Made by a program: the position numbers and the translations under genes. Of a stretch of 62,068 nucleotides of DNA, positions 42,374 through 50,137 are shown one piece after another (the stretch's first letter is position 1; every line of letters begins with the position of its first letter). The notes under the pieces were generated by a model, which was not told the origin of the DNA, did no database searches, and saw nothing but the letters and a program-made list of their open reading frames with translations. The stretch is from Ignavibacteria bacterium (GTDB lineage: Bacteria; Bacteroidota; Ignavibacteria; Tepidaquicellales; Tepidaquicellaceae): assembly GCA_016929695.1 (NCBI GenBank), contig JAFGII010000029.1, positions 1 to 62,068 on the forward strand. The letters run 5' to 3'.

Positions 42374-43159
42374 ATGAAATTAACTAAAATATTATTAGTG
42401 CTCTTCGCTTTCTCCTTATTCTTGGGTTTCTCGACATCATTCGCACAGGATGAAGAACCCTGGGAAAATATTGAAGAGGAAGAATACCTCCAGATGAAAG
42501 CAGACAAAGAGCAAACGATTGCAAATTTACAAGCGGACATAAATGCGCTTGACGAAGAAATTAACAATTTAAATGCAACCCTGAAGGATAAGAATGAAAA
42601 AGTAAAGAAAGCAGAAGATGAATTAGCGACATTTGGTGACCAAGCAGCATACAAGAAGGAATTTGAAAAAGTAGAAAAAATTCTCAACGAAAAAGACAAA
42701 TCAGGTGTAAAAGTTGAAGATGCAGAAAAAATGTTAATGGATCTGGAAAAGAGCAAATTAAAATGCATGGGCGACTATCCGGCAAGATTAGCAAAGATGA
42801 AGAAAGAATTAGACGCATGGAAGAATCCTCCGGCGCCGAAGACCAATGACTACACAGTATTAAAAGGCGACTGCTTATGGAAGATTTCCGGTAAAGTTTA
42901 TAATGAGCCTAAAGCCTGGTTCGCAATTTGGGAAAAGAACAGAGACGGTGTAAAATCAGCACCGCCAAGAGTACCAAAAACCATTAAGAACCCAAATCTT
43001 ATTTATCCGGACCAAGTTCTTGTAATTCCACCGCTTAATGCTGCAGACAAGCAAGCAGCCATTGAAAAGATGAAGCAGTACAAAAACAAATGGTATCCAA
43101 AGAAAAGAGTAATTAAGAAAGAAGCAACAGAAGAAAAGAAAGAAGATAAGAAGAACTAA
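42374..43159 (+). CDS. Exported coiled-coil LysM protein
   Basis: A 261-residue exported protein. The signal peptide (1-25, ending SFA) is followed by a long coiled coil at about 35-150 (KEQTIANLQADINALDEEINNLNATL), then a LysM domain at about 157-215: YTVLKGDCLWKISGKVY...NPNLIYPDQVLVIPP. LysM binds peptidoglycan or chitin-like glycans. A Lys-rich tail follows (KKRVIKKEATEEKKEDKKN). The coiled coil and LysM suggest a periplasmic spacer that grips the wall. AGGAG lies before the ATG with 9-nt spacing. It is followed by a strong terminator and is in tandem with the lipoprotein gene. Confidence 0.88.
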   Translation: MKLTKILLVLFAFSLFLGFSTSFAQDEEPWENIEEEEYLQMKADKEQTIANLQADINALDEEINNLNATLKDKNEKVKKAEDELATFGDQAAYKKEFEKVEKILNEKDKSGVKVEDAEKMLMDLEKSKLKCMGDYPARLAKMKKELDAWKNPPAPKTNDYTVLKGDCLWKISGKVYNEPKAWFAIWEKNRDGVKSAPPRVPKTIKNPNLIYPDQVLVIPPLNAADKQAAIEKMKQYKNKWYPKKRVIKKEATEEKKEDKKN

Positions 43160-47811: not shown

Positions 47812-48093
47812 ATGGCAAAAATAAATGTAACAATAATAGATGCGACGGGAAATAAACAGCAGGAAGCCCTGCTTCCTGATAATGCACCCATAAAAAAAAT
47901 AATGGAGGTATTACTGCCGAAAATGAAAATGCCTCTGACAGGTCCTGATGGGGACCCGCTTTCTTATAAATTTCATCATAAAGCATCAGGGAAACAGTTA
48001 ACTGAAACGCAGACCTTATCGGAAGCAGGTGTAAAAGACGGTGATGTTTTAAGATTATTTCCCGAAATTACCGCAGGTTCAATACACCGATAA
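47812..48093 (+). CDS. YukD/EsaB-like ubiquitin-like protein
   Basis: A 93-residue protein that fills one beta-grasp domain: MAKINVTIIDATGNKQQEA (strands 1-2), APIKKIMEVLLPKM (helix), PLSYKFHHKASGKQL (strands 3-4), TLSEAGVKDGDVLRLFP (final strand). This order and the KDGDVLRL ending are those of YukD/EsaB-type ubiquitin-like proteins. The tail is PEITAGSIHR: no Gly-Gly, but a single Gly at residue 89 four residues from the end. A cassette with an E1 and a RING protein follows (E1 start immediately after this stop). It is most likely the modifier or a scaffold of a prokaryotic ubiquitin-like system. Sulfur-carrier roles (ThiS/MoaD) are unlikely without Gly-Gly. Confidence 0.8.
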   Translation: MAKINVTIIDATGNKQQEALLPDNAPIKKIMEVLLPKMKMPLTGPDGDPLSYKFHHKASGKQLTETQTLSEAGVKDGDVLRLFPEITAGSIHR

Positions 48094-49272
48094 ATGAATA
48101 ATCCCGAAATATTCGACATAGAAGAATCCCGCTACTCAAGACTTGAACTTATACATTGGTGGGACGGTAATATATTAAAGAACTCAAAAATACTTGTTGC
48201 GGGATGCGGGGCACTCGGAAATGAAATCATTAAAAATCTTGCAATGCTCGGCTGCGGAAATATTTATGCAGTTGATATGGACAGAATTGAAAAAAATAAT
48301 TTATCGAGAAGCGTCCTATTCCGTACTGAAGACGAAGGTAAATTCAAAGCAGAAACCTGCTGCAAAAGAGCAAAAGAAATTAACGACGATGTAAATTATC
48401 ATTTCTATAACGGTAATGTATTTAATCTGGGACTGGGTATTTTTAAAGAGATGGATATTGTAATCTGCGGACTTGACAATAGGGAAGCAAGATTGTACAT
48501 AAATCAATGCTGCTGCAAAGTCAGTAAACCTATGATTGACGGTGCAATTGAAGTATTGTCCGGAGCGGCACGTATGTTCATTCCGCCGGAAACTGCCTGT
48601 TATGAGTGTACAATGAACGAACTCGACTATAAACTTTTAAACAAAAGGAAATCCTGTCTTCTTCTTGGAATAGAAGAAATTGCTTCAGGGAAAATTCCTA
48701 CAACTCCCACAATATCCTCAATAATTGCAGGTATTCAGGTACAGGAGGCGGTCAAGTATCTGCACAAAAGAGATGACTTACTGCTGCTGAAAGGAAAAGG
48801 ATTTGTCTTTAACGGCAATACAAACGATTCCTACATAATTGAATATCAGAGGAAAGAAAATTGTCTTTCACATCAAACGTTAGATAATTTTATTTCCGTA
48901 AATATTGAATTTGAGAATATACATTTTAAGGAAATAATTGAGTTTGCCGAGAAAATATTTGAAAACAAAAAATATACAATACAATTTAATAATGAAATTG
49001 TATATGATTTAGAGGGAAGAAAAACAAATAAGAAACTCTCCGTATTTATTAATATGAATTTACTTAACCGGAATGATATTAAAAGAGGAAATGAAATACT
49101 GAAACCTTTGATATTAAATAACATAGAAAGCGGTTCTGAAGTATTGAATAAATTCATAAATAAAAAATTAAGCAAATCAGGCATTCCGTTTAACGATATA
49201 ATAACAATTAAATCGGGAGGGAAGGAAGTTAATCTCGAATTTATAAACTCCGGAATTTTCATAGAGGTTTAG
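48094..49272 (+). CDS. E1-like ubiquitin-activating (ThiF/MoeB superfamily) protein
   Basis: A 392-residue adenylating enzyme. Its Rossmann-type ATP site is ILVAGCGALGNEIIKNLAMLG (about 32-52), followed by IYAVDMDRIEKNNLSRSVLFR, as in eukaryotic Uba3-type E1s and MoeB. The zinc site is C169-x2-C172 (ACYECTMNEL) paired with C257-x2-H260, where the last ligand is His rather than Cys. C188 (NKRKSC) sits where the catalytic thioester Cys of E1 enzymes would be. About 130 residues follow residue 260 that match no family I recognise. It starts on the base after the Ubl stop. The product should adenylate the C terminus of the Ubl; formation of a thioester is plausible but unproven. Confidence 0.88.
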   Translation: MNNPEIFDIEESRYSRLELIHWWDGNILKNSKILVAGCGALGNEIIKNLAMLGCGNIYAVDMDRIEKNNLSRSVLFRTEDEGKFKAETCCKRAKEINDDVNYHFYNGNVFNLGLGIFKEMDIVICGLDNREARLYINQCCCKVSKPMIDGAIEVLSGAARMFIPPETACYECTMNELDYKLLNKRKSCLLLGIEEIASGKIPTTPTISSIIAGIQVQEAVKYLHKRDDLLLLKGKGFVFNGNTNDSYIIEYQRKENCLSHQTLDNFISVNIEFENIHFKEIIEFAEKIFENKKYTIQFNNEIVYDLEGRKTNKKLSVFINMNLLNRNDIKRGNEILKPLILNNIESGSEVLNKFINKKLSKSGIPFNDIITIKSGGKEVNLEFINSGIFIEV

Positions 49273-49276
49273 CGGT

Positions 49277-50137
49277 TTGAACTGCCCTTATTGCCAGTCA
49301 AATATTAAATCCGATAACGAAGTTCAGTACTGCAAAGAATGCGGCACGCCTCATCACAAAGAGTGCTGGGACGAAAACGGCGGCTGTACTACTTACGGAT
49401 GCGGGCAAAATCCGGTTGCGAAGAAAAATAAAATCAACCTCGGGAATTTCACAATTGAGCAAATAGAAGAATTAAATAATCAGGAAATATCTTCTGAAGA
49501 TAATTATTGTATTTTTTGCGGCGGGAAAATAGAAACAGATTCAGTTTATTGCAAGCATTGCGGAAACAAAGTTGTTGTGAATTTACCCGAAAAACATTCT
49601 GAAGAATTTATCAGGGATTATCAAAACAGATACAAATCAAAGTTAAAGAACAGGAGAAATAAATATACGATAATTACAGTCGTATCGGCTGTTGTATTGC
49701 TGTTTTTTATTCCGATAGTTTATTTTGGTTATACATATATTGAAAAAAATTATTTCTCCGAAGAGGCAAAAATTTTCAGATTTGTAAGCAGATGGAAAAA
49801 AGCGTGGGAGTCTAAGAACACAAACAAATATGAATATTATCTTGATAAAGATTATAAATATATTGACAAGACAGGTGAAACAATCAATAAAGAAGAAAGG
49901 ATGAAAAGAATCAAACTGTCGTTTAAAAATATAAAAAATATCCGTCTTGAACTAAATGATTTTGAAATTATGTTCGATTCAACAGATTCGAATTACGTTA
50001 ATGTAAAATTCAGACAGAATTATATATCGGAGAAAATAAATGAAGAGGGGACTAAAATTTTGAGACTATACAGGGGACAGGATACAGATATGAAATGGAA
50101 AATTTACAGGGAGTGGTTCGAATCAATGAAAAATTAA
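49277..50137 (+). CDS. Membrane-anchored prokaryotic RING-finger protein
   Basis: A 286-residue protein. Residues 1-42 form a cross-brace zinc finger: C3-x2-C6, C19-x2-C22, H26/H27, C30, C37 and C42, like the Prok-RING family. A second zinc ribbon (NYCIFCGGKIETDSVYCKHCGNKV) lies at about 75-98, a membrane helix at about 128-153, and an extracytoplasmic domain at about 165-286 (FRFVSRWKKAWESKNTNKYEYYL) resembling NTF2/SnoaL-type folds. The start is a TTG, required because the first finger begins at residue 3; AGAGG lies 9 nt upstream. Four nt separate it from the E1 stop. It could be an E3-like or docking subunit of the Ubl cassette; ligase activity is inference. Confidence 0.8.
   Translation: MNCPYCQSNIKSDNEVQYCKECGTPHHKECWDENGGCTTYGCGQNPVAKKNKINLGNFTIEQIEELNNQEISSEDNYCIFCGGKIETDSVYCKHCGNKVVVNLPEKHSEEFIRDYQNRYKSKLKNRRNKYTIITVVSAVVLLFFIPIVYFGYTYIEKNYFSEEAKIFRFVSRWKKAWESKNTNKYEYYLDKDYKYIDKTGETINKEERMKRIKLSFKNIKNIRLELNDFEIMFDSTDSNYVNVKFRQNYISEKINEEGTKILRLYRGQDTDMKWKIYREWFESMKN

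Follow-up and report, generated by a model that had tools for sequence, protein, structure and literature searches.

We examined a window of 62,068 nucleotides (the whole stretch of DNA that was analysed) in which three open reading frames at 47812-50137 lie on the + strand, with 0 and 4 nt between them. The sequence-only reading of this region had described three co-directional genes for a YukD-type ubiquitin-like protein (Ubl), an E1 and a RING protein with a membrane helix and a periplasmic NTF2-like domain. Rechecking of the ORF positions reproduced the placement and spacing exactly, and Pfam bore out the identities, matching the three products to YukD (2.3e-15), ThiF (3.7e-50) and Prok-RING_1 (3.3e-12), respectively. 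The genes and their features are the following:

47812..48093, + strand: YukD-like ubiquitin-like modifier, 93 aa (PF08817)
48067..48078, + strand: invariant C-terminal ITAG motif of the Ubl, followed by a 4-residue extension, SIHR
48094..49272, + strand: 392-aa E1-like activating enzyme with a ThiF fold followed by a C-terminal alpha/beta domain
48655..48657, + strand: codon of the E1 catalytic Cys, Cys188 in RKSC
49277..50137, + strand: candidate E3, a 286-aa membrane RING protein with a TTG start codon (Prok-RING_1, DZR, Cds6_C)
49277..49411, + strand: RING domain, C4HC3, C-x2-C-x12-C-x2-C-x4-H-x2-C-x6-C-x4-C (pLDDT ~91, hairpin plus helix)
49505..49573, + strand: zinc ribbon, CIFCGG...CKHCG (DZR and zinc-ribbon matches)
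49670..49726, + strand: single transmembrane helix, predicted N-in/C-out (hydropathy 2.76; six K/R before, one after)
49757..50128, + strand: NTF2-like domain, predicted extracytoplasmic, of Csd6/Pgp2/Bd1075 type (PF24125 'Cds6_C', 2.5e-7)

The source assembly comprises 2.78 Mb and is 99.6% complete, and a genome scan with the E1 placed its nearest named relatives in the Ignavibacteria. The Ubl-E1-RING trio recurs in ~20 genomes of the same family, on one strand and in the same order where the contig allows; the arrangement is therefore not due to chance. Some 5 kb upstream in the window (42374-43159) lies a gene whose coiled-coil product looks secreted and ends in a LysM-like region.

The ubiquitin-like modifier and its activating enzyme

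The Ubl matches PF08817 at 57.5 bits, against a cut-off of 27, and also matches the ubiquitin family weakly (0.0027). Homologues 80-88% identical to it occur in relatives that also carry the E1. Judged from the family match, the protein should be a YukD-family beta-grasp fold with a conserved C-terminal Gly, and Gly89 is the predicted conjugating residue. The ITAG motif is present in all 32 homologues, of which ~14 end exactly at that Gly; most others continue in a short extension, and a few carry more than 9 extra residues. The tail PEITAGSIHR does have a single Gly and no Gly-Gly, as had been remarked from the sequence, but with the motif invariant and many homologues ending there it is not an odd tail. 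UFM1, ATG8 and ATG12 likewise conjugate via a single Gly, so the absence of Gly-Gly is no objection to conjugation.

The closest solved relatives of the E1 by sequence are the ubiquitin, NEDD8 and ISG15 E1s. The enzyme has both the adenylation site and the catalytic Cys expected of YukD-like Ubl conjugation systems, and Cys188 does not vary among the 35 family members examined. The ThiF core of its AlphaFold model (pLDDT 87, pTM 0.87) matches MoeB, ThiF and UBA3 with Z of 30-32 (VIA Z 30 for UBA3 and Z 32 for MoeB). Some alignments with full E1s extend into the C-terminal alpha/beta domain (approximately residues 265-386) at high rmsd, and for this reason the label UFD is not established for that domain. 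Conservation extends to the E1 zinc ligands, CYEC and C-x2-H; in one relative (G013, L063) the two pairs are missing together. Searching proteins with the E1 as query retrieved relatives from Ignavibacteria, Bacillota, Armatimonadota, Abditibacteriota, Planctomycetota, Acidobacteriota and Actinomycetota.

An E2 and a JAB peptidase lie elsewhere in the genome

Most E1 neighbourhoods outside Ignavibacteria contain a UBC-fold E2, at least one JAB and at least one RING protein, and in Bacillota, Armatimonadota, Planctomycetota and others Ubl, E1, E2 and JAB share one operon. At two loci a transmembrane trypsin-like protease lies upstream of the Ubl (listed: L004:4005-4919, L007:6693-7583, L011:12913-14277), and one planctomycete protein joins a RING to transmembrane helices and a trypsin-like protease. 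We built E2 and JAB profiles from the one-operon loci outside Ignavibacteria and ran them on the source genome (G000) and its relatives, which gave one strong match each in the source genome:

G000:C14:32290-32808: E2 (profile E=6.9e-64)
G000:C14:33254-33724: JAB peptidase (profile E=2.3e-53)

The two genes are side by side on a separate contig (G000:C14:32290-33724). This was the genome search for an E2 fold and a JAB domain that the sequence-only reading had proposed as a check; its statement that neither is visible stands for the window but fails for the genome. An E2 missing from an operon need not be missing from the genome.

The source-genome E2 passes the Pfam UQ_con cut-off with its HPN and Cys intact, and the profile also finds eukaryotic E2 structures. 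The HPN...C motif is present in 27 of 29 E2s, the remaining two being one truncated gene and one divergent one. The JAB protein has intact JAMM residues (HxHx10D), and the motif H[ST]HP...S..D is found in 35 of 36 JAB proteins, the exception being a split gene. The pair on contig C14 is thus an E2 with UBC fold and active-site Cys beside a JAB/JAMM protein with its catalytic motif. The architecture of the latter is JAB, transmembrane helix, LysM; the LysM of the source-genome protein is at the Pfam cut-off, just below it (20.8 vs 20.9 bits), while LysM is significant in 8 of 10 further JABs tested from Ignavibacteria and Armatimonadota-type loci, and also in one from Bacillota. A gamma-carbonic-anhydrase-like hexapeptide protein adjoins the E2 in all 20 family genomes that have an E2 (L086:7761-8288 and equivalents).

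Across 59 related genomes, we found the window-type E1 in 20, the Ubl in 21, the E2 in 20 and the JAB in 21; barring pieces cut by contig ends, the four share the same 21 genomes. The mismatches are G007, where a contig end leaves only a fragment of the E1, and G024, where the JAB sits at a contig end, exactly where the E2 would come next. From both relatives of the same genus, one of which is a single contig, all four are absent. Presence, co-occurrence, domain architecture and the catalytic residues of all parts can be read from the sequences themselves.

Wherever a contig of a family genome carries both JAB and E2, the two are neighbours and lie apart from Ubl-E1-RING. The operon of other phyla is therefore split in this lineage, the source genome included, and not reduced. 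The E1s of one-operon systems (L005-L014) carry a C-terminal zinc ribbon, CxxC...CxxC, which is absent from every Ignavibacterial E1 in the set. We dropped the idea that this loss is tied to loss of the E2, which is present in the genome; the missing ribbon is associated only with the split gene layout.

The membrane RING protein and its predicted outer domain

The RING protein (mean model pLDDT 83.9) has the eight zinc ligands in C4HC3 order of Prok-RING_1, and these are invariant among 11 proteins from several phyla. The prokaryotic RING has been described with the same eight ligands and order and a longer last gap (PMC11354881). The secondary structure of the domain, hairpin plus helix, is confident; the fold-search matches of the model covered the NTF2 domain only. 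The CxxC...CxxC of the adjoining ribbon is present in most family RING homologues, and ~18 of them have a single hydrophobic helix whose positive charges flank it toward the RING. Because of these charges, the RING is predicted to be cytosolic and the NTF2 domain to lie outside.

In sequence, the NTF2 domain comes nearest to Bd1075 (7o21, profile E=7e-10), and its confidently modelled fold matches 7o21 with a VIA Z of 16.9 and Csd6 (4xzz) with one of 16.7, so that sequence and fold agree on the Csd6/Pgp2 type. These relatives are the NTF2 domains of periplasmic LD-carboxypeptidases: that of Pgp2 binds peptidoglycan in its pocket, where K307 matters (PMC8038945), and that of Bd1075 directs its enzyme to one side of the cell (PMC8938487). 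Pgp2 has named G-x-K-x-L and terminal Glu positions, and conserved residues of the RING protein match these (the Lys near residue 260), as judged by spacing and by alignment with Bd1075, and we infer that the domain may bind peptidoglycan. In G009, among several kinase genes, a Ser/Thr kinase with a transmembrane helix carries the same NTF2-like domain outside (L117:5569-7038), which fits a sensor module.

The distribution of RING proteins is wider than that of the cascade. Five genomes of one genus (G009, G021, G026-G028; L113-L116, L118) keep the full RING-TM-NTF2 protein, adjoining the same menA/UbiA-type gene where inspected, and Ubl, E1, E2 and JAB are all absent from them. The source genome also encodes a second RING-TM protein of 506 aa (G000:C81:40820-40972; L109:5504-7024), near secE/nusG and ribosomal protein genes. 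It is conserved in most relatives and also occurs where the Ubl cascade is absent; both same-genus genomes that lack the cascade retain a shorter form. RING proteins thus have some role or persistence apart from the Ubl.

A candidate conjugation cascade, probably linked to the cell envelope

In our judgement these parts probably make up a complete ubiquitin-type conjugation cascade with a candidate ligase, in which E2 and JAB are unlinked from the other genes. The JAB peptidase would trim a Ubl that carries an extension to ...ITAG; the E1 would adenylate Gly89 and carry the Ubl on Cys188; the E2 would receive it by transthiolation; and the membrane RING protein would promote its transfer to lysines of putative targets near the inner membrane, an attachment that the JAB peptidase could reverse.

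The RING and JAB proteins are both predicted to be single-pass, with extracytoplasmic domains of peptidoglycan-binding type (NTF2 and LysM, respectively), a pairing that is new here. It is for this reason that we place Ubl attachment and removal, or their regulation, probably at the envelope. A counterpoint is that the NTF2 superfamily binds many ligands.

A bolder version is doubtful but worth stating: the outer domains would read peptidoglycan, the state of the wall would set the tagging of membrane proteins, and short SIM-like strands of the E1, the E2, the JAB and partner proteins would hold the Ubl. The SIM-like motif, [DE]-[ILV]-x-[ILV]-x-[LFI], occurs at the N-terminus of the E1 and the JAB and at the C-terminus of the E2 and of a transmembrane serine protease. 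Scanned as a regular expression, it was found in 18 of 29 E2 tails (L086-L107) vs 16 of 654 controls, and in the operon proteins (L004, L006-L009) 15 times vs 4.8 expected, both being counts over homologues that are not independent. For that reason we keep the enrichment as a lead only; it is possible that this strand motif binds the Ubl.

Alternative explanations

The membrane RING proposed as candidate E3 from the sequence is there, but its E3 role is no more than plausible, since five relatives keep the protein without Ubl, E1, E2 or JAB. The cascade could be real and the RING-TM-NTF2 protein an independent envelope protein, a target or an anchor, with the E2 acting alone or with another RING; the second membrane RING protein could be that E3. 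Both RING proteins persist in genomes without the cascade, the first of them beside its menA/UbiA-type gene, which would suit such independence. However, several unrelated phyla have RING genes inside Ubl/E1/E2/JAB operons, 4 nt separate the RING gene from the E1 here, and all the zinc ligands are conserved, and we regard this alternative as rather unlikely.

Direct passage of the Ubl from E1 to RING or targets without an E2, or adenylation of the Ubl and nothing further, would suit a window that has no E2 and in which Ubl-E1-RING is a tight unit. The genome-wide profile searches led us to reject both possibilities as very improbable: a cognate E2 with an intact active-site motif and a JAB are in the genome, they co-occur with the E1 over the 59 genomes, and the E1 keeps its catalytic Cys.

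A sulfur-carrier system of the ThiS/MoaD type, suggested by the resemblance of the E1 core to ThiF/MoeB, is more improbable still: a catalytic Cys and a C-terminal domain are both constant features of the E1 family, genes for E2, JAB and RING are present, and the Ubl is YukD-like with a tail ending AG, not GG. The source genome gave no family match to ThiS/MoaD (PF02597), the GG-tailed partner, and the E1 is the sole ThiF-family protein found in it. Least probable of all is a non-conjugated type VII secretion component like Bacillus YukD/EsaB, to which the PF08817 match might point, because the Ubl is genetically tied to E1, E2 and JAB, its C-terminal Gly is invariant, and no WXG100 protein, the type VII substrate, was matched in the source genome. 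The absence of ThiS/MoaD and WXG100 and the presence of one ThiF protein led us to reject these last two readings.

Comparison with known systems

Burroughs, Iyer and Aravind (2011, Mol Biosyst 7:2261) reportedly proposed that YukD-like Ubls are conjugated via bacterial E1, E2, RING and JAB, and later work cites them for such bacterial systems. Our best reading is that the source locus belongs to an E1-E2-(RING)-JAB cascade of this kind. It shares with their YukD-like operons the five component classes, a YukD-like Ubl predicted to be conjugated and a prokaryotic C4HC3 RING. It differs in that Ubl-E1-RING and JAB-E2 form two separate loci, the E1 is without the C-terminal zinc ribbon seen in one-operon E1s, and the RING protein has a Csd6-type NTF2 domain beyond its transmembrane helix. 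The split layout, the ribbon loss and the predicted wall-facing RING and JAB are thus the features particular to this locus.

The operon of Caldiarchaeum subterraneum is similar in its minimal set of Ub, E1, E2, small RING and JAMM; there a C-terminally extended pro-modifier is trimmed by the JAMM, and ubiquitylation has been reconstituted in vitro (PMC5654768). In contrast to that archaeal system, with its small RING and a Ub ending in GG, the source Ubl is YukD-like and ends in AG, and RING and JAB are predicted to be membrane-anchored. Bil (BilABCD) and Bub also combine a bacterial Ubl, E1, E2 and deconjugase. The Ubl of Bil is tandem and ISG15-like (PMC11354881), whereas the source Ubl is a single 93-aa protein unlike the tandem BilA, and the BilD match of the source E1 is confined to the ThiF core. 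The PADLOC E1-E2 models likewise match the ThiF core only, and matches to known defence models are confined to the cores of the E1 and the JAB. With the LD-carboxypeptidases Csd6, Pgp2 and Bd1075 the RING protein shares the same Pfam domain by sequence and fold, but here the NTF2 domain is fused to a transmembrane helix and a predicted-cytosolic RING, without a carboxypeptidase domain.

Complete bacterial E1-E2-RING-JAMM sets, whose functions are little known, bear on the origin of eukaryotic ubiquitylation, and in this organism the outer domains of the candidate ligase and deconjugase point toward the cell envelope.
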